Assembly (NCBI GenBank): GCA_017506865.1
Contig: JAFCMP010000057.1
Location: 1,054,001-1,118,000 of the forward strand
DNA: 64,000 bases
Source: Tribonema minus
Taxonomy: Eukaryota > Sar > Xanthophyceae > Tribonematales > Tribonemataceae
Direction: 5' to 3'
Shown here in pieces: positions 26,438 to 60,041 of the stretch (positions within the stretch are counted from its first letter, which is position 1; each line of letters opens with the position of its first letter). Both the position numbers and the translations under genes were made by a program. The notes below the pieces were generated by a model. The model did not search any database. It saw only the letters and a program-made list of their open reading frames with translations, and was not told the origin of the DNA.

Positions 26438-27207
26438 ATGGTGGCCTCGGCGGTGTTCATCCTGGATGCGAAGGGGAAGATCATCATATCCAGGAATTTC
26501 AGGGGGGATGTGCCCATGAGCATAAGCGAGAGGTTCTCTCTATACATACAGGTGAGCAGCAATTTTCATGCAATCGCATTATGGCTCGTGCGCTCATTCG
26601 ACAAGCTCATCACCCAAGCCGTCGTAAGACATGCCCTGACAGGTCTTTCGTTTCTGAAGGTTCAGTGTGGTCATGGAAAAAAAAACCAGCTCATAGAATG
26701 TGCTAGAGAGTAGAGGATGCCAACAAAACTGGCTACCGCGTCCATTGCTTGTAGCAAAGTATTAAGTCACCACACCGCCCTCAATAAGCACAATTCCACT
26801 TGCAGCCTTTCTGAATCAAAATCTTTACTCACTGTCATGCATAAAGATGGACGAGAGCTATGTAAAGCGGTGTACATCGCTGACTGGGGTAGACGTTCAG
26901 TGACCAAGAGAGCACCTGCTGCGACTCCTGCAATCGATGCTGCACTACAAGTGCCAGTACCACCTCTGCCGCGTTCCCTGATACCAGTTGCTGAGGTGCC
27001 GCCCATTGAAAATGCTCAACAAGGACACATTTCAGATCTCTTGTGATGCAAGTATGCAGAATGCACTGCTTTTTGCAACGGCGAGCACGTAACATTTACG
27101 TAACCGCAGGCAGCGGCTCGAACCTCTGCAGTATCAGCTGTGGTGAGGATTGCCGCACTTTGGAGGTGAACATGAAAATGTTGGTCTGAGCTTCTCTGCA
27201 GTGACAA

Positions 27208-27239
<32 letters not shown>

Positions 27240-30200
27240 GCGATACTTAGGCAAACCTGACAATCATGCCAGGGACCGACGCGGTTTCACTGACAACGAA
27301 AACACACCCATTTTGGCAAGCGCACCACCACCAGATCAAAACATGCACAGGTCACCACCACATATGGTATATCAATTTTCATGGAATGCAGCACTTCTGT
27401 ATGGGTCGCCACATGGCCCTCACCAATTCTGGCAGCAGCGTTTCATTTTCACTCAATGGCAGCGCACAGCTCACAACGTCTGTCCAGAGTAGGTCCCACA
27501 ACCTGACGGCGTAGAGGCACAGGTAGACGCAAGACGTGCGGCAGCAGCAGCGAACCGGAGCGGCGGTGAATCTGTAGAATGGCGGCAGCATCAAGAATAG
27601 TGGCAGTTGAGCTCTAGCAAGCATGGAATACTTCAAAGTACAGTATAAACTCTAAGTGTAGTGCTTGTCAGCAGGGAACCGACACCTGGCATATGTCGTG
27701 GTATGGTGACAACGAGTCTCATGAATATGGCGCTCGGTCACGCTGGCATTTTCCTGCAGCCACCGGGCTCTTGCGGTCTAAGAAGCAAGTGCAGCAGTCA
27801 GGCGACTGAGCAGAAGTGATGTTACCTGACGCAGCTGTGTCAGGCGCAGGATGAGGGTACGTGTAGGGGACACGGTGTCGCAGTGCTCAGCAACCTGCAA
27901 CCGCAAGGTTCCGTCATCAACAGCCATGTTCGGAATGATATTCCTCGTCACTCGCCAGTTTAGGTATGGAGGTGACACTTGGCCTCTACTACATGTACGA
28001 GTCATGCTGCGGCAGCGCAAGGACGCGCTTGCAGCACCGTGTGCAGTCAACGCCGCTCGCAATCATGCAGGGCGCGCCAGCGGCTCAGCGGCTTTGTCGC
28101 GTCCGCGGGTCTTCTTGCCGAGCGCTGTGAGGCTCACAGGAACGTGCTTCGAGCGTGCGCGGTGCTCGCGCGATCAAAGGGCGCGCAAGCGCACGAGGCG
28201 CGCCAGCAGCCCACAGCAGCTTCGGCGCAGTTAGGGCCTGTCGCGCCTTGCGCTGCTCTGAACATCATGAGCGCACACTGCAAGCGTGTGCGGTCGCTCG
28301 TCGCACGCGCGCGCGCGCATCGCGGGCGCACGACAGCAATCCCAGAAGCCATGCAGATGCCACTGCGTCTGGGGTCCGGTATGCGCCGTGCGGCAATCAC
28401 GATGCCGGTGACGATGCTGATCAGACGATGCTGGTCATCGTCATTGAGAGCGCACCGTGCACCGCTGCGCGTGCGCGCAGCATTGCTGGCGCAGTGGCGG
28501 AAGCCACTCGTGCGCCAGCGATTTCAGGCTGCCGCACGGCGCCGATGATGATGTTGATGATGAATACTGACCCTCATCAACAGCTGCAACGCGGGAGCCG
28601 CGCACATTCTTTGAGAGGCGCGGGCGCGAGCTGAGCGGGCTGCTACGCGCGCTGTGCGTTGCACCAGTGGACTACAGTGGCGGCTGAATGTCTTGTTGCG
28701 TAACTGTTCCATCTTGAAGAAGCGCTGTAGCGGGCGCGCACTGCGTGTCGCGCGGGTGCGACGGCGATGCTGCGGCAAACATCAGCAGCGCTCAGCATCC
28801 TCACCGCACCTGCTTTGCGCGCGCGCGCCGTCGCGCCGTGGCAGCAGGAGCGGACACACCTTCGAAACACTTGCCGCTGATGCAAGAACCTTGATATCAC
28901 GCCGCGTCAGAAAATGTAGGCACGACTCGGTCTGTAGTCCACAACGTGCATCAACACAAGCGTCTCTGCGTACCGATTAACTTCACTTGACCGCCCGCGC
29001 ACTGTTACGCTTGCAGGAGCGGGAGGAGACGGACCAGCAGCCGGTGTTCACGGAGGAGGGGTACACGTTTGTGTACATCCGGTACAACAACCTGCTGCTC
29101 ATGAGCGTCACCAAGCGCAACAGCAACGTCGCGCTCATGCTCGTGTACCTGTACAAGCTCACGGACGTGTTCAGGGACTACTTTGGGGAATTAGAGGAGG
29201 TCAGTGGTCCGCGGCGACATGTGGAATTACTACGTTCCTTCTTGTACTCGAAGTTGTACTTGAAGTATATTGCACGAGAGGGTGTGAGTTTGGTGGGGGG
29301 GGGGGCTGATGCGTGGCAGTGCTGAGCAACGGTGCGCTCCACGTACGATATGGCACAGTCGCGCACGGAGACCTGGCTGGTCACATCACACCCGGTGCAT
29401 GTGTGCAGCGGCGGAGTTGAGGACTGCCTGCGGTGCTGCGTTGCAGCGCTCAACAGTTGCGATGTTGCGCTGCTCACGCCCATGTGCCTGTACCACTGTT
29501 GGCGGTGTTTTGTTATACATTGAAAGGCCCAGTGGTCCGCAGCCCTGTGCATGTCACTGTGGCGGCAGCTATGATGAGGCTTGTCACCCCTTCACGGATG
29601 GCTGGAGTGTACAGGGCGAGGTGTGGCCACCTTCGGTACTTCGAGATGCGCATCAATGCGGCTGATTGCCGCAGTTGCCAATGGGGACGTGGCGTACCTG
29701 CCGCCGCTTCTGGGCGCTTTCACCAGTGTGGCACTGCTCTTCACAGCAACAGACACAATAACATGCAGATGGCCGCCGCCCGCTGACGATGCGCATCAGG
29801 ACGTGCAGCGACAGGCACGCACAAACTACTTCTTCCGAAGCGCGTGTAGACGATCCACGGCAATACAGCGCTGCCTCTTATATGTGGTGTGCGTGAATGG
29901 TGCTGTCAAGCTCAAGGCTCTGCGGTGGCGCCGCTTTCCACCTATTACGCCCATTCTGGCGCCATTATACGATGCGACCGCTCACGCTGCGCCAATTCTA
30001 ACCCTGCCCCCCCCCCCCCCCCCCTTCAATGCTCCCCCCGTGCTCGTCCCGTGCGCACAGGAGTCGATCCGCGACAACTTTGTCATCATCTACGAGCTGC
30101 TGGACGAGACCATGGACTTTGGGTACCCGCAGACCATGGAGTCCAAAATACTGCGCGAGTACATCACGCAGGTGCGCGCCATCGCTGCGCGCTGCTGCGC

Positions 30201-33200
30201 TGGTGGACTCAATCGCACTGCCGGGAAAGCTGTATCGGTCGGTCAGGCGCGCCGCCTGTGTGGAGTGTGGTGCGCTACGTTTACTGCATATTCTTTGCTT
30301 CCCAGAGTTGAAGTTTCTACTGAAGTGGACTTGCAGTACCCGCAGATCATGGGAGTCCTAAATGCTGCGCGAGTACATCACGCAGGTGCGCGCCGTTGCC
30401 GGAAGCGCTGCTGCACGCTGGTAGACACTATCGAAATGACGGTAAAGCAGCATCAGTCAATCAGGCGTGATGTGTGTGTAGCGTAGACACAATTACAATG
30501 CCGGGAAAGCTGTATCAGTCGATCGGACGTGCCGCCTGTGGAGTGTCGCACTACGTGCGACTGCATTTCCCTGCGTCTTCCCAGAGTTGAAGTTGGTGTT
30601 GAAGTATTCTTCGCAGCCATTACATGCACAGACAGGGTTAGCTTTACCTGGTGGTGCTGACTCTGCCGCTGTGTGGCCATGCCATCGCGGTCGCGGCGGC
30701 ACGCGGGCGCTGCGGTCCGCCGCGCCACCGCCCAATCGACAACGCTAGCCCCCAAGGGCGGCGCAGGTGTCATGGTGGGGGTGCCAGCGCAGCGACTCTC
30801 CATTGTTGCAAACTTCAACTTTGGATATGAGCTCCATGGCTGTACTTCCTAAAGCGCGTGACTGTACCTCGGCATCAGAAATGCGCCTCGGCACCGGCTG
30901 CTGGCATTCGCGCAGCGAGTGACGGAAGCGGGCGGTGGCGGCTTCGCGCCCTTCAGCAGCGCTCTGAGACACCGTTCTACCGACGATGCTGCTCTCTGAC
31001 ACCGCTCTGCTGGCCACGCTGCCGCACCCGCGCGCCACCATACTTGTATATGACACCGCGCACTTATGGTGAACTCGTCGACGTCTGCAGGAGGGGAGAC
31101 GGCTGAAGGCTGCGTCGCGGCCGCCCAGCAGCGCTCTCGCAACACCGTTCCACCGACCATGCTGCTGCTGCACCTGCGCGCCACTAATACGCTCGCATGT
31201 TGAAGTTTGCGCACGGCCCGCACGCAGCGCTCTCACAACACCGAATCGCCGATTATGCTGCCGCACCCGTGCGCCACTACAGTATATACTTCAGAAGTAT
31301 GACTCCGCAAACTCATGTTGAAGTGAGCGCCGTGCACAGGAGGGAATGGGCTGGAGGTTGCACCGCGGCCGCCAGCAGCGCCCTCACACCACCATTTTGC
31401 CAACTATGCTGCTGCTGCACCCGCGCGCCACTATTTAGGTATGGAAATGAATCAAAAGGTAGTAGAGCTATATGATACCGCGTGCTCATTGAAACCGCGC
31501 ACTCATGCTGAAACTCGTTGTCATGCACAGGAGGGGAATCGGCTGGAGGTGGCGCCGCGGCCGCCGGTGGCGCTCACCAATGCCGTCTCGTGGCGGTCCG
31601 AGGGCATCAAGCACCGCAAGAACGAGATCTTCCTGGACGTTGTGGAGAAGCTCAACCTGCTGGTCAGCAGCAACGGCACCGTGCTGCACAGGTGCGTGTG
31701 GGCAGTTACGGACAGTTACACTGGTTGGCTGATGGGTTTCGGGAGGAGTACCGGGAGGTGGTGGAGATGCTTAGCCTGCTGGTCAGCATCAATGGGGCTG
31801 CACAGGTGGGTGTGGCAGTTGCAGACACTTACAGTGATCTGGGAGCAGCAAAGACAGCGCGTGTGGTGGGAACGCACGTCAAGCAGGCATTGATGAATCC
31901 TGAACGAGACAGGATAGGCTTAGTTCGCTGGCCGGCAACAAAGGCGCAGCGTGGCACAGACACAGTGGCAGTGTGTGCCTGCCAATGGTAAGGTCCGCCA
32001 ACAGGTTTGATGGGCCAGGAACCCACAGGGTCAGGGGTGGGGGTTTGGCACCAGCAGCGCATCATCATTTCCAGTGACAGGCACGTGAATGTGATGAGCA
32101 CTGTTAAAGCGCTCGTCAGCCACACCGACACATGGTCGCTCGCGTGACGTGCAGCCTCTGCATGCTATCAAAACGTGAAGCTCAGGCCTGGGGTGAGGGG
32201 CAGGCGTGAACGCTGTCACACGATGTGAGACTCGCGTTGCGGGGGCGTGAAACAGGCAATAGTCTGTTGGGCGAACATCATGGAATCCCTCTTTGACCGC
32301 AAACCCAGCGATGCTCATCCCTGCGCCTGCGGCGCGCTGTCTGGTCTGGCGCCAAGCTCCGCTTATTGGCATGCTTCAACTGCACCGTTTTTTCCGTCTC
32401 ATCTCGCCGCCGCCGCAGCGAGATGCCCATTGTGCGCTGTCAGGTCCGACGGTCACGCGCTGCTCACTTGCGTGCACCGCTCCTCTGTTAGCCCTTCTGG
32501 CGCTCATCTTTGTCGCAGGCGGCGGTCGTTAACAGTAACTTCACACCTCCTTCCATGTCACGCGCCGCCGCTGTCGCAGCGAGATTCTCGGCGCCGTAAA
32601 GATGAAGTCCTTCCTGAGCGGCATGCCGGAACTCAAGCTCGGGCTCAACGACAAGCTGCTGTTCGAGAGCACGGGGCGGACCTCCGGCAAGGTGAGCGCT
32701 GCCGCTGCTCGCTGCTGCGGGTGATGGCGCACGCCGCAGAGTCGAGTGCTGCTGCACGAGCGCTGTGCTGTGGTTCAAGTTGGTCGAGCTTTGCTGCACG
32801 AGTGCTGCCCTAAAAATCGGTGGAGCGCTAGAGCACGACAGCGCTGCTTTTAAAGTCGGTCAAGCGCTGCCGTACATGCAGTCGAACGCTGCTGCATGAG
32901 CGGTCGAGCGCTGCTGCATGAGCGGTCGAGCGCTGCCGCACAAGCGCTGCCCTGTGCTTCAACTCAATTGAGCACTGCTGCACGAGCGCTGCAGTATCAT
33001 TCAAGTCAGTCGAGCGGTGCTGCACGCGCGCTGCGCTGTGCTTCGAGTCAGTCGAGCACTGCTGCATGAGCGCTGCTGTACGGTCGAGCGCTGCTGCATG
33101 AGCGGTTGAGCGCTGCTGCATGAGCGGTCGAGCGCTGCTGCATGAACGGTACCCTGTGGTTTGAGTCAGTGGAGCGCTGCTGCGCACGAGTGCCGCCCTG

Positions 33201-34502
33201 TGCTTCAAGTCGAAGCCTGTGGCGGGCAATGTGACCATGGTGGCTGCTCTCAGTGAGGCTTTGAGATGTGGGTGACTTTCGATCATTGCGATGACGTGCA
33301 GCACTGTGGTCCCTTGCGTGCTGCGGAGGGCAATGGGAGCAACGCAGGCACAGGCCCAGGAAACGTCTGGAAACTTGTGTATGATCTGCAAGAGTTTCTG
33401 TCTCTTCCACTTTGGCACACCAGTTGCGGACGGCGGAGCTGGGAGACATCAGTCATCACCAGTGTGTGTGCCTTGAAGGGCTTGCACTTTCACTTTAAGT
33501 AGGTGCTCCTGCAATGCATAGTACTTGCTCGCATCCAACTGCAATCTCTCCTGCGCTCATGACCCCCCCTCCCCGCTCCCCCTCCGCCCCTCAGGGCAAG
33601 GCGGTGGAGCTGGAGGACATCAAGTTCCACCAGTGCGTGCGCCTCGCGCGCTTCGAGAACGACCGCACCATCTCCTTCATCCCGCCCGACGGCGAGTTCG
33701 ACCTCATGACGTACCGCCTCGCGACGCACGTCAAGCCGCTCATCTGGGTCGAGACGGTCGTCGAGCCGCACTCGCACTCGCGCATCGAGTACATGGTCAA
33801 GGCCAAGTCGCAGTTCAAGTCGCGCTCCGTCGCCAACAACGTCGAGATCGTGATCCCTGTGCCCGGCGACGTCGACTCGCCCGCGTTCAAGGCGAGCGTG
33901 GGGAGCGTCGCGTATCACCCGGAGCGCAACGCCGCCGTCTGGTCCATCAAGCAGTTCCACGGCTCGCGCGAGTACCTCATGCGCGCGCACTTCGGCCTGC
34001 CGAGCATCGCCGCGGACGACCAGGCGGAGTGGCGCGCGCCGATACAGGTACGTACTTCAAAGTTGAAGTGCATCGCGCAGCGCGGCTGCTGTCGGGGGAG
34101 CGGCGTGCTGTTAGCATGCGTACGGATGGTAGAAGCGCCAGGAGGAGAGGCGCGCACCCCCAGAGTGTGTGCGCATGCGCGAATGCATGACTGCCTTTTT
34201 TATAGGGTGTCTATGCATGCAACGTTGCATATTTAAGTTTGCGTAATTGTGCATTTGTTGAGGGATGCGCCGCTGCATAGCATCGCGTACATGCCAAGAA
34301 TCGATATCGGTTCCCTGACGGTGTACTGTTGCTGCTGCTGCTGCCATTGCTGCTACGTCAGGTGCGCTTTGAGATCCCATACTTCACTGTCAGCGGCATA
34401 CAAGTGCGCTACCTGAAGATCATCGAGAAGAGCGGGTATCAGGCGCTGCCGTGGGTTCGGTACATCACGCAAAACGGCGATTACCAATTGCGTATGGTCT
34501 AG
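26438..34502 (+). CDS. AP1M: AP-1 clathrin adaptor complex mu subunit
   Basis: This medium subunit of the AP-1 adaptor selects YxxPhi cargo for clathrin vesicles at the trans-Golgi and endosomes. Exons: 26438-26551, 29017-29199, 30061-30171, 31531-31691, 32580-32691, 33595-34047 and 34362-34502 (TAG). All join in phase, giving 424 aa against about 423 for animal mu1. The longin-type N-domain begins MVASAVFILDAKGKIIISRN. The linker contains DNFVIIYELLDETMDFGYPQ. The mu-homology domain holds TNAVSWRSEGIKHRKNEIFL, FLSGMPELKLGLNDKLLF, the KFHQCVRLARFENDRTISFI block and RVEYM-like text, and ends SGYQALPWVRYITQNGDYQL. The FENDRTISFIPPDGEF and QALPWVRYITQNGDYQLR signatures favour AP-1 over AP-2, AP-3 or AP-4. 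Intron 1 is about 2.5 kb. Introns 3, 4 and 5 carry tandem exon-edge copies. The ATG at 26438 is preceded by an in-frame GTG, not needed for the family start. Confidence 0.97.
27207..27241. repeat. CAG/CAA trinucleotide microsatellite
   Basis: A run of (cag)n interrupted by one caa, inside intron 1 of AP-1 mu. Confidence 0.9.
30126..30610 (+). repeat. Tandem copy of AP-1 mu exon 3 end plus donor
   Basis: After the real exon end (30171) the intron repeats 'ctgcgcgagtacatcacgca' plus 'ggtgcgcgcc' at 30366-30400. It follows a degraded copy of the PQTMES codons with a one-base insertion. The downstream intron text 'gccgggaaagctgtatc' also occurs twice (30221 and 30500), each followed by 'cccagagttgaagtt'. 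Confidence 0.85.
30890..31530 (+). repeat. Upstream tandem copies of acceptor plus start of AP-1 mu exon 4
   Basis: The real acceptor is at 31529-31530. Copies of 'cacaggaggg.aa..ggctgga' with a following G/C-rich 'ccgcggccgcc' block are at 31080-31125 and 31334-31375. Older copies are near 30900-30960, and a partial one near 31210-31270. Each is followed by a variant of 'atgctgctgctgcaccc' and 'gcgcgccact'. Confidence 0.8.
31441..31470 (+). repeat. Dispersed short repeat, copy 1 of 3 (encodes MEMNQKVVEL)
   Basis: It starts 'atggaaatgaatcaaaagg' and continues 'tagtagagct'. It matches copies at 37198-37230 (+) and 40513-40545 (minus). It lies in AP-1 mu intron 3, just before the true exon 4. 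Confidence 0.85.
31741..31816 (+). repeat. Downstream copy of AP-1 mu exon 4 end plus donor
   Basis: This codes for a degraded version of the exon end: V-V-E-M-L-S-L-L-V-S-I-N-G against V-V-E-K-L-N-L-L-V-S-S-N-G. It is followed by 'gcacaggtgggtgtggcag', parallel to the real 'gcacaggtgcgtgtgggcag' at 31686-31705. Confidence 0.85.
32401..32432 (+). repeat. Upstream copy of acceptor plus start of AP-1 mu exon 5
   Basis: 'gccgccgcagcgagatgccc' at 32407-32426 parallels the real acceptor and exon start, 'gctgtcgcagcgagattctc' (32570-32589). Confidence 0.65.
32735..33190. repeat. Minisatellite in AP-1 mu intron 5
   Basis: Tandem units close to 'gtcgagcgctgctgcatgag' repeat with variants (cacgag, gcacaag). 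A longer period of about 60-70 nt includes 'cctgtgcttcaagtcagt'. Confidence 0.85.
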
Positions 34503-37445: not shown

Positions 37446-40400
37446 ATGTCATCTTCGCTACAAGCAGCAGCATTTCCGGTGCTGGATGGTGCACTGGACC
37501 CACTGCAGAGGGCGACTGCGCAGGAGAACCAAGCTGCCATGGACGCGTTGGTGGCCGATCTCAACAGGCGCCTGGCGAAGGCAATGCAGGTTGTGCATCT
37601 ATTTTAAAGTCTATCAAATCAGACAACATTGCTTGAGCTCCCTTATGGTACGTGGACGTTGTATGCTGCCAAGCACTGGCAACGTCTGGCGTTGCTGTCA
37701 CGGAGTCATGTGCACAGCATGCGTCGCTCAGCCCTCACCTATACTAAAACGATCCTCGCAGTTTCCTGCGGCCGGATTCAAAATCAGCGTTGCAACACTG
37801 TCAACCGTGCAGTGCTGCTGCCATCTACCCAACAGCTGCTGTCATACATGACCAGATACATGCACCAGCTCCTGAAAGCGGTGCACGAGATTTAAGCACA
37901 TGTGTTGTAGGTCGAACAACGCCGCGCACCGCCTTGCCTCTCAAGAAGGTGCGAGGGCTTAGTGGCGGTCCGCCATCATAAAGAGAGGCGGCAATCACTT
38001 TCCTTTCTGCAGTGGGACTGCAAGTTAATATGATGCCTGCGAATTTTTACAAACCATGGCCCCGATGCGCAAGCCATTGCATGGAGCATCAGATAAACGT
38101 GTGACCCCCCGCATCGCGTCGCACGCTGCGCCGTCACTCGGCAGGGCGGCGGCGAGGCAGCAATCAGGCGCCACAAGGGCAGGGGCAAGCTGCTGGCGCG
38201 GGAGCGCATAGAGGCCGTGCTGGACGCGGGAACCCCCTTCCTGGAGCTCTCTCCCCTGGCCGGGGGCGACTCGTGAGTGCTGTTGCTACCGCGAACGTAC
38301 ATATGGCATTCCCTCAAAGCAATGAACATAGTATGCACTGTATTCACCGTTAGCTGCATACTCATACTGTGCCGGCGTGGACATACACATGGCACTCCTT
38401 AACGCACTTTGAATACACCGTTTCCTGTGACGTGCACTTCTCCGCCGATGCGGAGGCTGTACTGTAGACGTGTTGTGCTATGTGCCTCCATGTGTTAGAT
38501 GTGATGCAGTCATAAGGGGTCACGGGGACGCTTGCAGGACCACTCTTGCACGTGCAGCAGGGGACGCCACACGGCCACATGCAGGCGCACTGGCGAGGCA
38601 GTTGTATCCTCTGTTTGTGCATGAAGTCGACTGATGTCAGGCAATGCTGACGTATGTGTGGTAGCAGCGGTCTTGGACAGTGCTTTGTAGCGCAGTCGCA
38701 GCAGCTCAGCCAGCCTACGCTGTGCGTTGCGAGAGTAGAAACTTGAAGATCCTCAATTGCTCAACTCTGCTGGCCCCAGCAACGGAAGCTGGCAGCCAGA
38801 TGGAGAGGGGCTCCGTTGAACAGTGAGTGTTGACGAGCGCGCGTGCACGCTACACAGCGCCCCTGATGAACCTGCAATTTGCATGGTGCGAAGCTTTCAT
38901 TGTGGCTGGCAGGGTTGAATGACACCACAACGCACACGTCAACTTCAACTGGATGAACAGACGCCGCGGATGACGTGGGCGAATGCTGCGTAAGTGAGAC
39001 AGAGCAATGCCATTCACATGGAGCACTGATACACAAGGCTGTTGCGCCGCATTTGCAGAGATGAACGAGCGCTGCCATTTACACTGTGCGCTGACACACG
39101 GCGCTGCCGCGGAGCCCTGACACGCTGATTGCCGACGCACGCGACGCTACGGCGCTCTGTGTTTCTCAACCCACATTGAAGCTGCTGTTCATCGTGCGCT
39201 GACAGCAGCGCCGCTCCCGCGTGCCCCGTCTCTACGCAGCATGTATGGCAAGGGCGAGGATGCTGCTGAGCGCTGATGCACCCAATGCCGACGCACGCAG
39301 CGCTGCTGCGCTCCGCGCCTCTCAGCCTACATTGAAGCTGCTGTTCATTGCGCGCTGACAGCAGTGCCGCTCCCGCGCGTTCTCGCACAGCATGTACGGC
39401 AAGGACGATGTCGCGGCGGGCGGCGTGGTGACGGGCGTCGGCGTCGTGTCGGGCGTCAAGTGCGTCATCGTCGCCAACGACGCAACGGTGAGGGAGGCGC
39501 GCTTTGAGGTGTTGGGCGAGCATTGCGGCTGCTGCGCGAAGCGGAAGTGATGAGTGGCGTTGCAGTGTGCTGAGTTGGGAATCTTCAACTTCAACCCATG
39601 TACTTCAACGTGAACACTGTTGTGTTGGGCGTCAAGCGCGGCATCGCATCGTCGCCAACGACGCCACGGTGAGCGCTGTGGCTCTGTCGGCGACCGACGT
39701 CGCGCGATCGCGGCGTGCGGCGCGCAGCGGACACGATGCGCTGGTCTTGCGAGTTCAACAACTTCAGCTTCAACATAGGGACTTCAACTTTAACACACGC
39801 TTTTTGGGCGCCAAAGTGTGTCGACGTGGCCTTTTATGACGCCACGGAGAGGGGCACTGTTTGGTTTAGCGGGGGGGTCTGCGGTGTGCTGGCTGTCATG
39901 CGCGCGTGTGCGCTGCTGCCCCAGCTGTCGGGCGCAGCGCGCGGTGACGACAACCGCTTGGCCTTGCAAGGCCACTGCTTGGCAGCCTGCTTTGGCTGGC
40001 ACCTGACACCCCAGCTCACGATGTAGACTCTGCATGCAGCTCACGCGTGCATCTTACAGGTCAAGGGTGGCACGTACTACCCCGTTGCGGTGAAGACGCA
40101 CCTGCGCGCGCGGACGGGGGGAGGGGGGGGAGAGGAGGCGCTCCCCATGACGCAGACAGCTCACGCGTACACCTCACATACATCTCGCGTGACGCACGAC
40201 ACCACCGGCTCACAACTTAGACTGCGCGTGCATCTCGCGCGCGTGTCGCGCAGGTCAAGGGCGGCACGTACTACCCCATCACCGTCAAGAAGCACCTGCG
40301 CGCGCAGGAGGTCGCGCTCGCCAACGCGCTGCCGTGCCTGTACCTGGTCGACAGCGGCGGCGCGTTCCTGCCGATGCAGGCCGACGTCTTCCCGGACCGC

Positions 40401-43400: not shown

Positions 43401-46400
43401 AAACTCATCAAGTTCGTCGTCATTGCGCAGCGGCGGCGGGTGCTGCTGCGTGGCAATCAGCGCAAGTGCGTGAAATATGATGCCGCGCCGCTGCCCGCAC
43501 TGCTGTTGCAGGTGCTGGCGCGCGTTCTGGATGGGAGCAGATTCTCAGAGTTCAAGGCCAGGTTCGGAACCACCATCGTCACCGGCTTTGGGCACCTCTA
43601 CGGCCAGCAGGTGACGAGCGCTTGGATGACCGTGCGAGAAGTGCGCTAATAAGCGCTTCTCTGTTGAGCCTAGATTACGCTGAAGATACTTTGTAACGGA
43701 AGTGCGGGTTGTGCATATGTGGCGTGAAAAATGAGCCAGATGCCAGGGCTGATAGAGAAGTGGGCACTGAGCAGGTCAAGTCAGCACAAGTTGAAGTCAG
43801 CAGGGTTGGAGGCGTGGCTTGCAGCAGCGATCAGGCGGAGGTCGCGCGCCTCAGCATGCGTGCTGCCGCAATCCTAGCAGCAGAGCACCGTGCTTGAAGT
43901 TCACAGTTGGAAATGTCAAAGACATGACCAGAGCAAGTGAAGGTTCAAGGCGTCGCGCATGCCGTACTCTCCGTTCTTGAAGTTGCATGCCAGCATTTTT
44001 TGTATTCCCCTATGCTTTCTATCATTATGTGAACCAGCCATCCCAAACAAGTCTGCCCCCCCCGTTCCCTTCCCCTTTGTGCTCTTGAACTCAGAGGGCC
44101 ATCCAACAACTCCTCAGAAACGCACACAAGACGGTGCGCGTGTCTCATCGCTAACCACAGTGTTAAGGTTACGCTAACCCCAAACCCTAAGACCATACGC
44201 GTGCCTCACCGCAGCGCCGTGCCCTCCGTCCTGCGCAGGTGGGCATCGTGGCAAACAACGGCGTGCTCTTCAGCGAGAGCGCGCTCAAGGCGGCGCACTT
44301 TGTTGAGCTCTGCTGCCAGCGCGGCGTGCCGCTCGTCTTCCTGCAGAACATCACGGGGTTCATGGTTGGCAGGTGGGAGACGTGGATGTTATTTGCGGTA
44401 TTCATGGTGCAAGAATGCCTCGGGTTCTTGTCAGTGCTCCGAGGGCGCTGTGAAGGGGCGTGGTCGGGACTGCCTTATGCGATTGTTATCGCATGGTTAA
44501 ATGCCAGGTATGTTTGCTGACATGGGGTTGTCAGGGCTTCGGGGACAGACACCTCGCGCCGCTGGCGGGTGCTGCAGTTGTGTGTGCCAACATTACCTGG
44601 GAGGAGGGGGGGGGGGGGGGTAAATTCAAATTGTGCATGGACGATCATGATACCCCCTTTCACCGTGTTGTGGTTTCATCCATTTGCGTGTTGGCGATGA
44701 CGATGTGCGATGCTTGACCATGTCATGATGGTAGACACTTCTGCGCCAGCACACGACACATTGGCCTGGGAATGGCATCTTCAGCAGCACCGCAGCAAGC
44801 ATAGCAACGCGACTCCGCGCGCTCACTTCTTTGAGTACCCCCCCCCTCCACCCCCCCTCACAGGAAGCACGAAAACGAGGGGATCGCGAAGCACGGCGCC
44901 AAGATGGTCACCGCGGTCGCGTGCGCCAAGGTATGTATGTATGCATGTATGTTACATTGTACGCTCAACCTGTAATATCCGAGCACATACACCCTAGAAT
45001 GTAGGTACTGAATGTGCAGCGTCGACCAGTCCGATCGTTCAAGACAAGGTTAGGGTCAGCGTCGGGAGGGTCAGGGTCACCCGTGGTTGAGGTGAGCTCG
45101 GTCACGCCGCGGTGTGCGGCAGCTATGGCGCGGCAGTACACTGGCCTTGTAGGCAGGAGAACTGGCAGTTTCAAGGTGGTTGGTCACAGTAAGCTGAAGC
45201 ACAAAAACTTCGCTGCTCTACTGCGCATGGCGCTGCCGCCGCCCGCCGCACTGCCGCCGCCGCGGGTCCCGAGGATCACGCGCATGCTTGGCGGCAGCTA
45301 CGGCTCGGGCCTTCATTTCAGAGAACGGCAGTGTTGCACTGTTTGTAGTTCAGTGAACGGCAGTGTTGAAGTGGCGGTGTTGAAGAAAATCAGCCACCAA
45401 AGTAACGCGAGGCACAAAAGTCATGCTTCTGTACAATCAGCCACCAAAGCTACGCGAGGCACAAAAGTCATGCTTCGTTGTTCATTGCACTGACGCCTCC
45501 ACGCCGCCGCCGCCTTGCTGCAGGTCCCGAAGATCACGTGCGTGATCGGCGGCAGCTATGGCGCCGGCAACTACGGCATGTGCGGGCGCTCTATGTCGCC
45601 GCGCTTCCTCTTCATGTGGCCGAACGCGCGCATCGGCGTCATGGGCGCCGAGCAGGCGGCCAATGTGCTGACGCAGGTCGAGAAGGTGAGCGCTGCTGCC
45701 GCTTCTGCTGTTGCTGCTGCTGCTGACTTGTGTGCGTGTTGTGCCGCACGCGCGTCGGTGTCTCGATGGCGGAGCAGGCGCCGAACGTGCTCACGCAGGT
45801 CGAGAAGGTGAGCGCCGCTGCTGCCGCCGCTGCTGCTGCTGCTGCCGCTGCTGCTGCTGCTGCTGAGCGTTGTGTGCGTGTCGTGCGGCACGCGCGTCGG
45901 CGTCATGCTGGCGAAGCAGGCGGCCAACGTGCCGGTGGAGGTCGAGAAGATGAGCATCGCTGCTGCTGCCGCCGCTGCTGCTGCTCCTGCTGCGCGCTGA
46001 GCGCTATGGTTGTGTGGGCCCAGCACGTGCCTCGTGGCCGCACAGTGGACGGCCGCCAAACGTGCGACGCAGGCTGAGAGGGAGGGGATGAAGTGCTGAA
46101 GTGCGCTGCCGCTGAGCGCTGCTGCTGCGCATGCGCCCTTTGACAGCGGCGGCAGTGGCGCTTTCTTGGGGTCGAAATGCAAAACGTGGTGTTGTCGACT
46201 ACAGCGGTCGCGGCGCCGTCATGCGCTTGGCATGAGTTGTGGTGGCGTTCTGAGTGCAAGCCAGCGGCCGACATTGTGCTGATGCATGCTGGAAATGCGA
46301 GCGCGGTTGCAAGCTTGAAGTGAGATGACGGCCATGACAACTGCTGTAGTTGCAAACGGCGGCAGCGGCGGGGCTAGGAACTTCTGTCTGCAGCATGCAC

Positions 46401-49051: not shown

Positions 49052-52000
49052 ATGCGGCAGTCCACCAGGTCTCTGCTCACAGCACTGCTGGTCTGGGGTT
49101 GCACCGTGGGGACGAGAGCTGAGGAGGTGCTGATCTTCGACGAGAAGTTCCACAACTTCGACCTTAGCCTTTGGCGACATGACATTACCATGGGTGAGTG
49201 AGGCACAGGCATGGCATGGACGCACGATGATGATGTTTTCCTGACCTGGGCTGTCTGGAATTACTCCACGTGTTCGAGTAACGATTGTCCGTCAAAGGCT
49301 GCCTCGACGAGGTACTTGACGATATGTAAACCCAGCAAATCTCACACAGGAATCTGTGTGCATTGTTGTAGTAGAGTTACGGTTGTGGCTACAGCAACAT
49401 GATAGGCACGCCTGCCATGCAATGTGCCTATGCGCAAGCAACCCCAGAGGCATGCCTGCTACCCATGTACACGGCTGTGGCCTGGCAAGCTGGAGCCGCT
49501 GCATCGGTTGCAGGAGGCCAGCATTATTTGCGTAGCAGGCTCCTCTATAACTTACTAGTAGTCAGCAACTGGCGGGCCTTGAACCGCCTCCGTCACCTGC
49601 ATCCTGTCTGCCTATTACGAGGTGGCCGGCTGTTCAGCACTGTTTGCAGCCAAATTGATGCCCGAGTTGACCAGTCTTCCGCATCTGCATTTGGCGTTCG
49701 AAGATCAGCTATTTGCTGACTGCGTGTGTTTAGGGTTGTTGCAATCTTAAATCGTAAAGTTACGCGTAACGTTTTATGCCGTAATTTATGCCGTAAATCA
49801 GAACGCATATCGTAAGACCGTAAGTTACGGTTCCATTAAGTTACGGTGCCGGTGCCGGAACTTGCGGCATACCCTGTATATATGTAGTAGGTAGTAGCCT
49901 GCTAGTAGGCTACTACTCCTGTTTCTCGGGTTTTTTCTGCACACGCACCCTCAAAAATCAGGTTGAAATGAAGTTGCGTGCGGGAGAGAACGAGAGTGCA
50001 GTGCTGCATGGGACTGGTGGCGATGATGCAATGAAGATGCAACGCTGTTGGACAGCGTGCGCCGACGAGCTTCTTTGCGTTGCGGAACAAATAATTGCTG
50101 ATGTGCATGTAAGCGCACAAAGCTTACACCGCAAAAGCAGAGCGGGAATTGGTGCGGGCGAGCTTGCAAAAGGAAGGCGGCTGCTAGATGCAACCACTAC
50201 GGCTAACACTTTTTACTGTCACTCCGGCAAGAACGATGCTGGGGTACCCCAAACGACCGCATGACAGGCCCAGATTGAGCTCAGGGCTTCGCCAGCACAT
50301 GTTCACGGTGGTCTCTCTGCACTGCTCTGAAGCAATAGACATATTGCATTGATCCTGATGTGTGAAGCATGTCTGGTTTGAGGGCGGGGGGTGCACATAT
50401 TACAAAAAACCTCATTTTTGAGCTCATTTACGACATTTACGGCTTTTACTATTTACGATTACGGCATACTTATGTTACAATTACAATTTACGATTAGCAG
50501 CTCTTTTACGGCTTACGATTACGGTACGTTACGTTACGATTACGATTTACGACTTAAATTTTCAAATATTGCGATTCCAACAACCCTACGTGTGTTGCAC
50601 CTGCTCGACGCTCGCGGCTGCGTGGCGGCGTTCGCAGGCGGCGGCGGCAACTGGGAGTTCCAGCTGTACCAGAACAACCGCACCAACAGCTACGTGGACG
50701 ACGGCGTCCTGTACCTGCAGCCCACCCTCACCTCTGACCGCATAGGTATGCAGGGCATGTGGGTAGGGGCACTTGACATTGCGCTTCGCACGATTGAGGA
50801 ATCATGATGACTCTGAATTCTGACCGCATAGGTACCAGGGGCACTTGACACGTGCGCTTCACACTGTTGAAGAATCATGGTGACTCTCACCTCTGACCGC
50901 ATAGGTAAGAGGGGCACTTGACGGTGCGCTTCACACTGTTGCCGAATCGGTATGTGGGTGCTTGAAGTGGACACGAGTGACCCAAAAAAGTCAGGTGCAG
51001 GGGTAGGCAGGTATGCATGTTGGTAGGACTAGGGTTGGGAGCACTGCTGGGATTTGTCAACAGGCTCAGAACCGCTTCTCAGCGCACGCCTTTTGAGCTC
51101 ATCGTCATTCGGTGACACGTGGCGCAGATGGCTGCGGTCAAATGTGCATGGGGAAGTGTAATTTTGTAGCTTTCCTTATGGCGCTGGTCTAGGGTTGGCT
51201 TGCGCACACCTTACCCCTGGCCCTGTCCTCAACACAATTGAACGGATGGGCGGGCACCAACAGTCTAACTCTGTAGTTCTGCTCATCTGCTGGTCCAGGG
51301 TCGGCCAGCGCAGCTTCAACCCCTGATCCTGGCCTGGAGAAGATGAGCACTGGGGCAGGCAGTTCTGCGCAAAGCGCATACACCACACCCTACATGCAGA
51401 CCATTACACAGGCGTTCTTGCTATGATGTCGCGTGGCGTCACTGCAAGCTCTGTGAGCCCGCCGTGCGACGCCCGCTTTTTCACGAGCAGCGCTGGGCGC
51501 GGGGGGGATGCAAGGTGCACGCTTGAAGTTGAAGTTGGGCCACAAATGCTGCGCTCTCGCGCCGCACGCTGCGGTTGTTCGCAACGCAGACGCTGCTGAA
51601 TGCGCCGCCGGCTCTCCAGTGCGGCAGCCTGGACATTCGCAGCGCTGCTCAACCGCCGCCGCAGCGCGTCATCTCAGCCCGCGCTCACACGCGACGCGTC
51701 TTTTTCTCCGTGCTCTCGCGCGTGCGTCGGCAGGCCGCGCGCAGGTGCTGGGCGGCTACACGATGGACATGTGGGGCCTCACGGCCGCGGACCAGTGCAC
51801 GTCAAACGCGTTCTACGGCTGCCTGAGGACCAGCGATGGCGGCGGACGGTGCGCGGCAACTTTAATTGCTGATTAGCTAGCTTTAGGAAATCGAATTGAC
51901 CGTACCGCTGCCTGAGGACCAGCGGCGGTGGCAGACGGTGCGCGCGCAAAGTGACCCATTCGCTTGTTAGCTAGCTTTAGGAAATTGGAAATGAACTACG

Positions 52001-55000
52001 GCTGCCTCAGGACCAGCGACGGCGGCGGACGGTGCGAATGCAGAGCAACCCGTTCGCTGATTAGCTAGCTTTAGGAAACCGGAAATGTCCGTACGGCTGC
52101 CCCAGGACCAGCGACGGCGGCGGACGTTGCGTGCAAGCGCAAGACGACCTGTTCGCTTATCAGCTGGCTTTAGGAAATTGGAACTGCCCTACGGCTGCCT
52201 CAGGACCAGTGACGGCGGCGGACGGTGCGGGACAACTTGAACTGCTTATTAGCTAGCTTCAGGAAATCGGAGATGTCCCTACGGCTGCCTCAGGACCAGC
52301 GACGGCGGCAGACGGTGCGCACAAGCGCAAGTCGACCCATTCGCTTGATAGCTGGCTTTAGGAACTCAGACATGTCAGCTGCAACCTCTGTGCGCGCTGT
52401 GCGTGCCAACAGTCAATGCTGGGAAGCGTAGTCATCATCAGGAAGCGGCTGGGTGCGATGCTAGAGATGAACTCACTGGTAATGCAGTACGTGTGGTGCA
52501 AGGAGCGAAGGGCACAGGGCATCTGGCCGCGGAACTGTTTTGACGCGGTGCACTCCGCGGGTGCCGCGGGGCCAGCGGCGCGGCAAACCTGCCCATAACC
52601 CTCACCCTAAGATTTGAGCGCACGGGCATGGTGTGACTTGTATAGTGCAGCAATTAATGCTCGTACCGAAGCTTGCGGGTATGGCGCGTTGCTGATCGCA
52701 ACAAACGCGGGCCTGGAGCCAGCAAATCTGGGATACTGCGCTCACCAGCGCTCAGCTGCGCTACCTCAAGTAGAAGTATGAACATGAACAGTGTAGCATC
52801 CATTCGTCTGGGGTGTTTGCATGCGGCAGTGCTCCTACCACTGCTTGTCTGCGGGAACAGGACTACATGCTTTGACCGGCGGCGCACAGTTGACGTCGAC
52901 TGCACCTTCGGTTCGCTTCGGGAGAGCCACGGACGCCGAGTGCTTCTGCATCGACCAGTGGCAGCAGCACGGAGCTGCATTCTCACATGTGCTTGATTAG
53001 CCCCTACCATAACCCTAACCCTAGGAAAGCTGACATACCACCGCATGTGTAGAGATTTGAAGACTGAAAAGCTGCATGCGCTTGTGCCGTGCTGCAGGCA
53101 CCCGATCAACCCCATCTCGAGTGCCAAGATCACTACCGCTGGGCGCTTCTCGTTCACGTACGGCAGGTCAGTGCCCCGCAACGCACTTGAATCTCAGCTT
53201 ATACAAAGCGCGCATGAGTCCTTGAGGTTTGTGGTTGAACTTTAAAGCTTCAGCTCTGGACGTGAACAAGTTAGTGCTTGGCGTTCTAATAGTTTGGTGC
53301 TCTGTATGTGTGTCTTGTTCTCGTGTTGAGTGAGTAAGCCGCTCGTGCACGCAGTTCCAAAGCCCTGCGGAGCTGACAGGCTATGATGCCGTGCGCCGTG
53401 TGTGCCATCCCTGTGCACGCATCGTGACGCACGTGTCCGCGTTGACCTTGCTGAGCGCTGCAGCTCGGGTGCACTGCCAGGGTGCCACAGTGGTGCCGTT
53501 CTAGGGCCAAATGGCTGGTTTTGTAATGGTGGCAAGTCAGCGTAAGCCTTGTTGGGATCCACGTGTGGGTGCAACTCTAGTCAAGAGTGATCGATAGTGG
53601 ATATCTTCCTGTGAAAAACGGACCCTTCAACTAGAGTTTTATGTGTGCTGCTGGTGCACGCCAAGGTGTCGCGCGGCGACTGACTGGCTCGTGAGGTTCG
53701 TCGCACATGACTCATGACTTGTGACTGATGACTCATTGCTCTCGCCTCGCCACGGCTTGCACGTGCGCAGGGTCGAGGTGCACGCCAGGTTGCCGCGTGG
53801 CGACTGACTGGCTCGTGACATTTGTCGCTCACGCCGCGTCATGTGCTCACGCAGGGTGGAGGTGCACGCCAACGTGCCGCGCGGGGACTCATGACTCCTG
53901 ACTCATGACACATTGCTCCCGCTCTTGCCGCGGCTTGCGCGCACTCAGGGTGGAAGTGCACGCCAAGGTGCCGCGTGGCGACTGGCTGTGGCCCGCCGTG
54001 TGGCTGCTGCCGCGCGACGAGGCCTACGGCACGTGGCCCGCGTCTGGCGAGATCGACCTGCTGGAGTCCAGGGGCAACGGGTGAGTATGTTCATGAATTG
54101 AATACCATGAAATTCAGAAACAATTAAAAAGGGAGCATGTGGCCCGCATCTGGCGAGATCGACCTGCTGGAGTCCAAGGGCAATGGGTGAGTCTCGTGTT
54201 CATGAATGAATATCATGAATTCATGGTAACGTTTCAGAAAGGGGCAACGGGTGAGTCGCCTGTTTATGAAAGAATATACTTCGAAGTAGGTAGTGAAATT
54301 TATGAAAAAAGGGCACTGCACGTGGTCGGTCTGGCGAGATCGACCTGCTGGAGTCCAGGGGCAACGGGTGAGTTGCTTGTTCATGAATGATCATGATTCA
54401 TCATGAATGTCATTTATCATGAAATTCATGGAGCGTCCAAACAAGGGGCACGTGGCCCGCGTCTGGCGAGATCAAGCTGCTGGAGTCCAGGGGCAATGGG
54501 TGAGTCGCCAGCAGTGGCTGGAGTCATGAAAATGTTTCAGAAAGGGGCATGCGGCCCGCATGCGAGATTGGCTTGCTCGAGTCTAGGGGCAACGGGTGAG
54601 TCTCGTGTTCATGATTGAACATCATGATCTTCATGAAAGCGTCCAAAGAAGGGCATTTGACCCCCATTCGAGATTGACTTGCTCGATTTCGTGGGTTACG
54701 GGTGAGTCGTCAGTTAATGAATGAAGTGCATAGATTCATGTTTGAGGAAGGGGCATGTGACCCGCCATGCAAGAGTGACTTGCTTGAGTCCGGGTGCATT
54801 GGGGATTTTCCTGTTTGTGAATTGAATACATTTCATGGAAACATTTAATAAAGGGGCAGGTGACCTGCATGCGAGATTGACTCGCACATCCTCCTTGGCG
54901 CTTTGCGCTTCTAACCCTATGAGTATCGCTGCTCTGTCATGCTTTCCCTGTGCGAGTGCAGCGCCAACTATCCACCGGGGGGGTCTGACACCATGAGCAG

Positions 55001-58000: not shown

Positions 58001-60041
58001 GCCATGAAGGTGACACCGCTCAACCCTAGCCCTATCTTGACCGCCTCATACCACCTAGCCCTAGCTTCACCCGTAATGCTGGTCCTGACCTCAAGTTTCA
58101 ACGATGGCCCTCACTTCTGCCATGATCGTGATGTTGAAGGTGACTGCGTGCTGCATGACGCGCAGCACGCGATGACACCACGGCGACGCACGGCTGCTGA
58201 GGTTGATGTCTGTGACCCGTTCTCGCCTGCGGGCTGCCAGGAAGACACCCACTTTTGCATACTGCACTCCCTCAGTCTACGGGGGGCACAGGCCCGGCAA
58301 CCATTACGCGGAGCGTCATCACGTGGAGTACCCTCCATGCGCCGCTCGCTGCAGTTTGCGCAGTGTGTGCATGTTGTTCTGAGAAGCAGCAGCGTTGGCA
58401 TGGACTTGGCAGCCACAACTATCTACGGTCGCCACACTTCAAATGAGCTTGTTCATTGAAGCAAATCGCACTTGGAGGACGCTCTTGCTCTCTGCGTGCA
58501 GCTGTCGAAGCACAGCGTGCTCTGCAGCATTTGCTTAGCCATTCGGCGCTGAGCACTGACCCCGTCTCGTGCACCTCGGTTCGGTTCCCCCCCCACGGCT
58601 GGGGTGGGGCCTGTGCAGAACACCGCATGCGTTGAAATACTAGTACATGCCTTATTACTGCTTCTCCTCCATCGAATCGATATGCAACACGCCTGCTTCT
58701 CCTCCATCGAATCGATATGCAACACGCAACGCTGATCCCGTGCATCCTCCCACATCAAATTGACATGCAACACGCAACACTGATCCCGTGTGTTGTGTTG
58801 TCTCAGTTCCTGGAGGCGCAGAACCAGTGGTACCCCACGTGGCAGCTCGACAGCGGCAGGGGCTCGGCACTCCAAGTCAAGTCTGTCAAGGTGTGGCAGC
58901 AGGCAGACAGGTGCGCGATCGCGTGGTCCAAAGCTGCGCTCAATCGGTCGAGGGCTATGGGCCCGTGCGTCTTTGGCAATGAGAGTGTACGAGTGACTTG
59001 CGCGAGGTGCAGCTCGTTTGTTTCAGAGTCTAACTCAGTCATCTGATGTACTGGAAGCTGAACTTGCGCGCGTGCATACGCACATACATGTCGAGTCTCG
59101 GTGCGCGCGCGCGGTCACGGCCGCGCCGCGGTCAAAGCGCGCCTGAAAGCGAAATGCGCTTGTACATGACGCCTCAAGCAAGTGAAGAATACTTCTACTA
59201 CTTTTTGATTTTCACGTGTACTTTTAGTAGGCTAGACTCGAAGAAGCCCACTCACAGCAGGTGCGTACAGGACAGCGCACCGCACGCACGACTGAGCCGC
59301 AGGCGCTGCTGCCGTGCCCGCAGGCTGAGCTATGCGTGTGCATCACCGGAGCACTGCCCCGCACTGTCCAAGCCGGCGGTGGCGCCGCCGCCGCTGCCAC
59401 CGCCGCCGCCACAGGGCGGCCACGCCAACGACGTCGTGCCACCGCCGCCATTGGCGCCGCTGCCGCCGATGAAAGATAGTGGCGCCTCAGCGGCGCCCCC
59501 GCAGTGCGTGAACGATGACGCGGAGGCGTTGCATGACAAGGTGAGCCCCCTCTGATGAGGTGTGGCTTGTGTACATTTCATTCATTCTCGCTCAGGGCGC
59601 GGAAAAGCCCAGATGAATGGCATCTAACTTGAAGCTGCTGTACGGAATCTACATGTCGTGTGACAGTCTGAAAGTATCTCAACGACAACCACTCAAAAGC
59701 CTCGTGTACTTTGCCGTACATTAGAGAGTGTTTGCTTGGATTGCATACTTTCTTGCGGCACCCAAATCTGGCTACCACAGCCTGCAAGGACAACACCAAA
59801 CCATCTGATGGTCACATCGCACGTGCACTATGCTGCGTGCCAATCGTGCTCGCGACAGGTGGCGCTGCTTACGGGCGTCAGCGCGGCACTCGGGACCACG
59901 GTGCTGGGGCTGCTGGCCCTGGTGCTGAAGCTGCAGACGGGCGAGCGCAGCAGCAGCGGCGCCGCGTACGCGCGGCTCGACCGCAGCGGCCACGGCGCGG
60001 ATCCGCGCAGAGAGGTCGAGCTCGAGGGCGTGCGCCGCTAG
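49052..60041 (+). CDS. GH16 beta-1,3-glucanase / beta-glucan-binding protein, secreted with C-terminal membrane anchor
   Basis: Exons: 49052-49193, 50638-50745, 51734-51848, 53098-53166, 53949-54080, 54962-55036, 55959-56048, 56539-56704, 57926-58009, 58807-58910, 59324-59540 and 59859-60041 (TAG). The phases join to 494 aa. The signal peptide starts MRQSTRSLLTALLVWG, with cleavage likely after TRA. The GH16 fold follows: DEKFHNFDLSLWRHDITMGG, NWEFQLYQNNRTNSYV, CTSNAFYGCLRTS, RVEVHAKVPRGDWLWPAVWL and the catalytic SGEIDLLES. The last keeps both Glu and the Asp of E-I-D-x-x-E, so it is probably active, unlike insect GNBPs. Then come HWGPYMGL, the FHTYGMVWTEEG block, PFYIIMNVAVGG and NQWYPTWQL. 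A Cys/Pro-rich stalk precedes the helix VALLTGVSAALGTTVLGLLA and a short cytoplasmic tail. The likely substrate is laminarin or wall beta-glucan. The exon 11 start is ambiguous (59261, 59303 and 59324 all keep frame). Confidence 0.93.
49731..50588. mobile_element. hAT-like MITE (858 bp) in GH16 intron 1
   Basis: The ends are TAGGGTTGTTG (49731-49741) and its exact reverse complement CAACAACCCTA (50578-50588). The element is flanked by an 8-bp direct repeat CGTGTGTT (49723-49730 and 50589-50596). An 8-bp target duplication with TAGGG-type ends is typical of the hAT superfamily. The sub-terminal regions are inverted arrays of a TTACGR-like word: CGTAA on the left (49750-49860) and TTACG on the right (50420-50560). 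The interior has no transposase frame, so it is non-autonomous. Confidence 0.88.
50745..50945 (+). repeat. Downstream copies of GH16 exon 2 end plus donor
   Basis: 'tctgaccgcataggta' occurs at the real exon end (50733-50748) and again at 50818 and 50892. Each is followed by 'ggggcacttgac' and a shared 'gcgcttc.cac..ttg' spacer. Period about 74 nt. Confidence 0.95.
51848..52330 (+). repeat. Five downstream copies of GH16 exon 3 end plus donor
   Basis: 'cggctgcctcaggaccagcg' plus 'acggcggcggacggtgcg' variants occur near 51905, 51998, 52095, 52192 and 52282. The real exon 3 end is 51848. A conserved spacer, 'ttagctagctttaggaaat', separates units. Period about 93 nt. One copy has lost the GT of the donor ('cggacgttgcg'). 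Confidence 0.95.
53650..53948 (+). repeat. Three upstream copies of acceptor plus start of GH16 exon 5
   Basis: 'gtgcacgccaaggtg.cgcg' variants with 'ggcgact' occur near 53652, 53779 and 53861, before the real exon at 53949. The later copies include 'cgcaggg' acceptors. They alternate with a 'gactcatgactc'-rich spacer. Confidence 0.93.
54081..54900 (+). repeat. Seven or more downstream copies of GH16 exon 5 end plus donor, decaying with distance
   Basis: Copies of the segment coding WPASGEIDLLESRGNG plus gtgagt start near 54137, 54240 (partial), 54325, 54450, 54548, 54655, 54750 and 54855. Each ends in a '..gggtgagt' donor followed by 'ttcatgaat'-type spacer. The first copies are nearly exact over this segment; the last keeps little beyond 'gcgagattgact'. 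Confidence 0.95.
55300..55830. repeat. Interstitial telomere-type repeats in GH16 intron 6
   Basis: 'taccctaaccctgac' lies near 55308, and 'ggttagggttagggtttt' plus 'gtcagggttagggttag' lie between 55780 and 55825, in opposite orientations. They are degenerate TTAGGG arrays within one intron. Confidence 0.8.
56784..56809. repeat. GA dinucleotide microsatellite
   Basis: An uninterrupted (ga)n run in GH16 intron 8. Confidence 0.95.
58650..58806 (+). repeat. Tandem repeats ahead of GH16 exon 10 acceptor
   Basis: 'cttctcctccatcgaatcga' plus 'tatgcaacacgc' occurs twice, and 'caacac.gatcccgtg'-type units occur twice more, running into the acceptor 'gttgtctcag' (58797-58806). These duplicate the polypyrimidine region without exon sequence. 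Confidence 0.8.
59577..59706 (+). repeat. Dispersed intronic repeat, copy in GH16 intron 11
   Basis: This is the partner of 47712-47830. It has an additional 'gaagctgctgtac' insertion relative to it. It starts about 37 nt after the donor at 59541. Confidence 0.9.

Follow-up and report, generated by a model that had tools for sequence, protein, structure and literature searches.

Tandem duplications across exon-intron boundaries as a probable source of intron growth in Tribonema minus

Introns in a stretch of the Tribonema minus genome contain tandem copies, in various states of decay, of the exon edges that adjoin them together with the splice sites at those edges. The stretch analysed here is 264 kb long and consists of a window of 64,000 nucleotides (nt) from contig JAFCMP010000057.1 (C57:1054001-1118000), with the genes for the AP-1 complex mu subunit, methylcrotonoyl-CoA carboxylase beta (MCCB), and a GH16 or concanavalin A-like glucanase, plus 100 kb on either side. 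Arrays of these copies that cross an exon-intron junction are enriched in this sample when arrays are counted as events. We therefore consider it likely, with a probability of roughly 0.65, that T. minus undergoes local tandem duplication that is biased to exon-intron boundaries and that lengthens introns with neutrally decaying copies.

The model of the AP-1 mu gene read from the window has seven exons and GT-AG introns, and its 424 residues are identical to a public T. minus protein (P0001). Hand-assembled queries retrieved the public T. minus counterparts for MCCB (P0241) and GH16 (P0121), and exact spliced alignment of the three proteins gave 7 exons for AP-1 mu, 13 for MCCB, and 15 for GH16, with the following positions in the window:

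26438..34502, + strand, AP-1 complex mu subunit gene, spliced model identical to P0001
26438-26551, 29017-29199, 30061-30171, 31531-31691, 32580-32691, 33595-34047 and 34362-34502, + strand, exons of AP-1 mu
37539..47989, + strand, MCCB gene, 13 exons by exact spliced alignment of P0241, Pfam PF01039
48906..60038, + strand, GH16 or concanavalin A-like glucanase gene, 15 exons per the public protein by exact spliced alignment of P0121

According to its public protein, MCCB has two GC-AG introns, with GC donors after 40430 and 41176. The rest of the 264 kb was annotated with a gene finder written for the purpose, whose training set included AP-1 and MCCB and which recovers all 7 of the AP-1 exons; its first setting, which yielded 1168 exons with many tiny ones among them, was abandoned for a stricter one. 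Of the 16 predicted genes, 5 (three as pieces) were compared with Pfam, and they match TRIC, a kinase with ankyrin repeats, a kinase plus Mre11, glycosyltransferase 92, and BT1; the kinase plus Mre11 model is probably two genes run together. The resulting sample comprises 117 introns of at most 2500 nt, 32 from public models and 85 from predicted ones.

Comparison of the window with itself yielded 53 direct repeat pairs, 42 of them spaced less than 3 kb apart. The exon-edge arrays that an earlier examination of the DNA by itself (the sequence-only reading) had located in AP-1 mu, MCCB, and GH16 were borne out by this comparison, as was its claim that the repeat units straddle the splice junction: 14 of the 15 intron arrays in the three genes include 10 nt or more of exon sequence. 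The same arrangement occurs, as that reading had proposed, in an ankyrin gene. Repeat units in the three genes are 62 to 257 nt long, and the arrays are as follows:

30113..30605, + strand, array crossing the donor of AP-1 exon 3 (donor after 30171)
30937..31573, + strand, array crossing the acceptor of AP-1 exon 4 (start 31531)
31632..31836, + strand, array crossing the donor of AP-1 exon 4 (donor after 31691)
32740..33211, + strand, array entirely within AP-1 intron 5, the sole exception among the 15 arrays of the three genes
39105..39408, + strand, array crossing the acceptor of MCCB exon 3 (start 39391)
39443..39814, + strand, array crossing the donor of MCCB exon 3 (end 39487)
40005..40305, + strand, array crossing the acceptor of MCCB exon 4 (start 40254)
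41151..41386, + strand, array crossing the donor of MCCB exon 5 (end 41176)
42070..42486, + strand, array crossing the donor of MCCB exon 6 (end 42113), original plus three copies
45226..45568, + strand, array crossing the acceptor of MCCB exon 11 (start 45524)
45619..45993, + strand, array crossing the donor of MCCB exon 11 (end 45685)
50724..50948, + strand, array crossing the donor of GH16 exon 2 (end 50762)
51813..52376, + strand, array crossing the donor of GH16 exon 4 (end 51848), about six copies
53653..53988, + strand, array crossing the acceptor of GH16 exon 6 (start 53949)
54026..54885, + strand, array crossing the donor of GH16 exon 6 (end 54080), about eight copies by eye
1947..2547, + strand, array crossing the acceptor of an ankyrin exon in the predicted kinase-ankyrin gene

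AP-1 exon 4 is flanked by copies on both sides, and each of the three intronic copies of the MCCB exon 6 edge includes the donor region, with the GT mutated in one of them.

These copies are far more frequent than expected by chance. Across the 264 kb, 189 local repeat pairs are direct and 8 are inverted after low-complexity filtering (229 and 23 before it), an excess of direct neighbouring copies that marks the tandem duplication as local. A more permissive BLAST scoring was dropped and replaced, because alanine-rich coding sequence flooded its matches. The last 80 nt of an exon have a copy within the following intron in 26 of 106 introns, and the first 80 nt have one within the preceding intron in 16 of 106, with 0.5 introns expected and a single hit in the reverse-complement control in each case. 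Among junction windows that have a copy, the copy lies on the intron side in 46 of 47, as the sequence-only reading had described. Tandem repeats cover 15.3% of intron bases and 3.2% of intergenic bases, a comparison that includes only 42.5 kb of callable intergenic DNA and on which no claim is based.

Similar arrays are found elsewhere in the genome. A search with the Cpn60_TCP1 profile (56 matches) made partial repeats of exon edges visible, and inspection by eye, counting the original, showed five copies of an acceptor with its exon start and also one copied donor at a CCT locus on contig C51, six copies of an acceptor with its exon start at a locus on C135 (207901-209200), and about eight copies of an exon end with its donor at a locus on C5. 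Short mu segments are repeated in mu paralogues on C116 and C346, and on C116 the end of one mu exon produces two matches (positions 32-104 and 81-103 of the model). A kinesin search, in which 122 of 191 candidates were scored and 132 matches obtained, revealed a repeated exon end in two genes, on C246 and C511. An Adaptin_N search (27 matches) gave no clear repeated edge and only one overlapping pair, on C224. The same geometry in independent genes, which the sequence-only reading had noted in the window, is also seen at the CCT loci, with repeated segments in the mu paralogues; the loci that were read in detail were chosen for their repeats and indicate the breadth of the phenomenon rather than its frequency.

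Because a per-window test and a coverage profile do not separate where arrays start from how long they are, arrays were counted as events and compared with simulations. There are 77 arrays in total, of which 53 lie within the 117 introns, and 40 of these 53 (0.755) overlap an exon by 10 nt or more; the three public models contribute 14 of 15 and predicted genes 26 of 38. Uniform placement of units, given the unit and intron lengths, predicts 19.5 +/- 3.1 crossing arrays. A forward neutral simulation, in which units were placed at random, no duplication occurred within exons, copies decayed, exons changed slowly, and the output passed through the same pipeline, gave mean crossing fractions of 0.31-0.35 and peaked at 0.457 across 56 runs. 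When indels were made heavy, segments were deleted, or exons were held unchanged, the means were 0.27-0.41 and the highest of 36 runs was 0.585, and four pilot simulations with only 11-21 arrays each gave crossing fractions of 0.26-0.55 (top 0.545). Among arrays that have a pair at least 80% identical, 25 of 30 cross a junction. When all exons are masked, 25 of the 40 crossing arrays and all 13 interior arrays are still detected, and therefore exon conservation alone does not produce the excess of crossing arrays. With each array counted once, homology-supported edges in the three genes give 14 crossing arrays versus 1 interior array, and predicted genes with Pfam support give 12 crossing arrays, 2 that cross at an unsupported edge, and 5 interior arrays. 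The exon share of the unit falls below the uniform expectation, but exon length limits this share and it was left out as evidence. Junction-crossing arrays are thus enriched in this 264-kb sample, where 40 of 53 stands against neutral means of 0.27-0.41, rather than placed at random with respect to splice junctions, the outcome that the sequence-only reading had named as telling against it.

The fate of the copies was followed in 51 copies at 32 junctions, each with an exon part of at least 20 nt. Self-matches led the copy search to mask about 100 nt at the beginning of each intron, and copies that start there were consequently missed or truncated; the pooled decay counts exclude copies at three junctions of the predicted gene g10, which has near-repeat exons, as well as copies with more than 8 gaps. 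In 41 well-aligned copies, the exon part is 90.3% identical to the original and the intron part 85.6%; the ratio of exon to intron differences is 0.67, and by our own arithmetic about 0.6 is expected when a neutral copy is set against an exon under constraint. Third-position excess in single alignments had suggested coding constraint on the exon parts of the copies, an interpretation that was rejected because the pooled differences by codon position in all 51 copies (66/57/120) fit the expectation if only the exon is constrained. The exon part contains indels in 22 of the 51 copies. In the 40 crossing arrays, the exon portion is mostly 20-90 nt and reaches less than 100 nt into the exon in 37. 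The three that reach deeper are 17723-18821, which contains coding repeats, 54026-54885, which spans a false GH16 exon, and 90142-91031, which involves near-repeated predicted exons. The crossing arrays do not follow the pattern of whole-exon tandem duplication or mutually exclusive exons, in which a copy holds the complete exon, its two splice sites, and an open frame, and the indels and the short exon reach agree with the earlier statement that these are not whole-exon duplications. Overall, decay of the copies looks mostly neutral, and selection is not clearly apparent in either direction, whether favouring decoy sites or removing them.

The arrays are associated with longer introns. The median length is 880 nt for the 36 introns with crossing arrays versus 501 nt for the other 81, and after subtraction of the extra copies the medians become 576 and 496 nt. 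Extra copies make up approximately 17% of intron bases, a slight overestimate in that array spans include exon parts. The pattern of introners or transposable elements was not seen in the window self-comparison, which involved no genome-wide search: each array repeats an edge of its own gene. The sole repeat pair more than 3 kb apart in the genes between 26 and 60 kb, 47705-47826 and 59570-59701, is a dispersed repeat of about 130 nt that is 85% identical and lies near the ends of the MCCB and GH16 genes.

Several points weigh against a duplication process biased to junctions. The sample is a single stretch that makes up 0.17% of a genome of 158.18 Mb in 554 contigs, and the three genes with public models are those that prompted the finding. 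At z>5, the copy rate is 47/252 in junction windows versus 61/337 in intron-interior windows (5/90 in exon-interior and 9/150 in intergenic windows), and repeat coverage stays level on the way from the junction into the intron, with no peak at the junction; the preference for junctions shows only when arrays are counted as events against a random-placement model. Moreover, 85 of the 117 introns depend on ab initio models of moderate accuracy: in the MCCB-GH16 stretch, the gene finder predicted 12 of 20 exons exactly and 30 of 40 edges correctly, called an MCCB array copy (45778-45871) an exon, and fused MCCB, GH16, and later genes into one run. Finally, 10 of the 51 copies combine a conserved exon part with an intron part that aligns poorly, which is not what a single neutral clock predicts, and 6 of these 10 retain similarity at z of 4 or more in the flank on the intron side. 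The similar copy rates and flat coverage would be expected if duplications occurred at random, with no junction bias, and selection cleared them from exons while short introns and the easier recognition of conserved exon sequence did the rest. About one third of arrays should then cross a junction anyway, and the neutral-looking decay also suits this explanation. However, the 92 simulations reach at most 0.585 versus the 0.755 observed, arrays of higher identity are more biased rather than less, and 25 crossing arrays versus 13 interior ones persist with exons masked, making random placement unlikely, although it deserves serious consideration. Gene models could also mislead if predicted exons were themselves array copies or had wrong edges, as did happen with the finder's false exon and its misplaced edges in the MCCB-GH16 stretch, and as the public GH16 model, which also includes a copy-derived exon, illustrates. 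The genes with public proteins nevertheless provide 14 of 15 crossing arrays, Pfam-supported edges provide 12 (plus the 2 at unsupported edges) versus 5 interior, and a false exon made from a copy still implies that a true edge was copied; we consider it improbable that faulty models account for the pattern.

Functional copies, which would serve as decoy or back-up splice sites or as alternative exon ends under selection, appear similarly improbable. Their best support is that GT or AG is retained in 43 of the 51 copies, that 35 of the 41 well-aligned copies keep the dinucleotide when a two-lineage calculation expects 29.7, and that the ten copies described above keep exon sequence better than the flanking intron. 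However, a single-lineage calculation is fairer, because the original dinucleotide is fixed, and by our own arithmetic it predicts approximately 35 of 41; the codon-position differences fit a neutral copy, and the exon-part indels also argue against function. The suggestion of the sequence-only reading that the arrays supply decoy splice sites found no clear support, with GT and AG retained about as often as neutral decay predicts, the cruder expectation being somewhat lower. That reading had also raised tandem-duplication intron gain or growth as the underlying process, and the two parts of the proposal fared differently. Intron gain from exon segments that carry AGGT and are duplicated in tandem would suit a genome stretch in which tandem duplications that include splice signals are common, but introns gained in this way should show resemblance across the intron, and this is near background: the intron start resembles the start of the next exon, at a level beyond the 99.5% null, in 2 of 106 introns, and the intron end resembles the end of the previous exon in 1 of 106, with 0.5 expected for each. 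One of these three hits is the GH16 intron at 54081, whose next 'exon' is a mis-annotated copy. Because it is the same-side edge that was copied, along with its intron side, an existing junction was duplicated. The process is therefore growth of existing introns, in keeping with the greater length of introns that have crossing arrays, and gain of these introns by tandem duplication is very improbable. An assembly artefact from merged haplotypes or read errors can hardly be the cause: pairs span 65-98% identity, periods vary among loci, copies sit on the intron side, and their differences follow a neutral pattern.

We propose that local tandem duplication of segments of approximately 60-260 nt is frequent in T. 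minus and may be ongoing, and that a process, presumably mutational, biases it towards exon-intron boundaries. In this process, duplications that fall inside coding exons would be removed by selection, while those that straddle a donor or acceptor would be tolerated because the outermost original splice sites could still yield a normal mRNA. Junction duplications would be nearly neutral and would accumulate because the outer original donor and acceptor would stay in use. Each would lengthen the intron by one unit consisting of exon edge, splice site, and intron, and the intronic copies would then decay neutrally and could amplify into arrays. Candidate sources of the bias are breaks coupled to transcription or to splicing, and edges in nucleosomes, chromatin, or composition that coincide with exons. 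A stronger version of this model treats exon-intron junctions in T. minus as mutational hotspots of tandem duplication, created by a splicing- or transcription-coupled process, with repeated junction duplication and subsequent decay as a main engine of intron lengthening and much of the intron sequence as worn exon edge. This version is tentative and in our judgement somewhat less probable than even.

Two kinds of short sequence were recorded in connection with breaks. Short interstitial tracts of telomere-like TTAGGG occur 27 times in the 264 kb, with 19 in introns, 6 in long predicted introns, and 2 in intergenic DNA, at positions that include 42597, 53011, and 55785; they are possibly scars of break repair. 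The word TTGAAGT/ACTTCAA, examined as a candidate break motif, is overrepresented four times in non-coding DNA (184 occurrences versus 44.8 expected), with a density of 1.22 per kb in introns versus 0.47 in intergenic DNA. In introns the sense form is favoured, 95 to 46, and 50 of the 141 intron occurrences are inside arrays. The sample also contains duplicated stretches, 7383-8341/19454-20406 and 11656-13084/21697-23150, that are 71-81% identical and lie in predicted alanine- and serine-rich genes.

The public GH16 model is partly wrong, judging from alignment with six homologues, and its exon 7 is an intronic copy:

54446..54499, + strand, annotated GH16 exon 7, a copy of the exon 6 edge inside the public gene model

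The 18 residues that this exon encodes (181-198) duplicate the final part of exon 6, and none of the six aligned homologues has them. Residues 54-79 and 310-332 also lack a counterpart in these homologues; in terms of exons, 3, 7, and 11 are the ones without a counterpart. The array count is unaffected by the false exon because the array at 54026-54885 crosses the true exon 6 donor. A risk for annotation is evident, given that the gene finder (45778-45871) and the public annotation (GH16 exon 7) both took copies for exons.

Intron growth apart from transposon insertion is poorly known, and the arrays point to an overlooked route to longer introns. Ordinary housekeeping genes display this growth step at many different ages, and the original edge provides an internal reference; therefore its rate, its placement bias, and the fate of the copies are measurable. 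The arrays also raise the question of how the spliceosome chooses the outer site among several near-identical ones.

Zhuo et al. reportedly traced human introns to tandem arrays in 2007, as an origin of new alternatively spliced introns, and that work shares with T. minus the link between tandem arrays and introns. Intron gain by tandem genomic duplication was reportedly described by Gao and Lynch in 2009 and by Hellsten in 2011. Our literature search, which covered titles and the beginnings of abstracts, returned no recurrent duplication of exon-intron junctions within existing introns and none for Tribonema. In Tetrahymena, arrays of 90-bp LRR exons take part in a cycle of intron length (PMC6564038). 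Those intragenic arrays of exon plus intron units are likewise tied to intron length, but they comprise whole coding exons in one gene family, whereas those of T. minus comprise partial, non-coding exon edges in housekeeping genes. Drosophila has acquired novel intron positions through tandem duplication or sliding (PMC2891723), and regional duplications that involve splice signals are common to both systems. The Drosophila events differ in that they are a handful of cases, with proto-splice sites within coding exons and new intron positions, and the passages on them describe no exon-edge arrays inside old introns. The closest parallel is intron gain by tandem genomic duplication, in which an exon segment that bears AGGT is duplicated and a new intron arises (PMC3443670), with the potato RdRp gene as one case (PMC4974935). 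There, as in T. minus, a gene segment with a splice signal is duplicated, and the duplication is tolerated as splicing removes the extra copy. In contrast, T. minus duplicates an existing exon-intron junction, does so repeatedly, and it is the old intron that grows.

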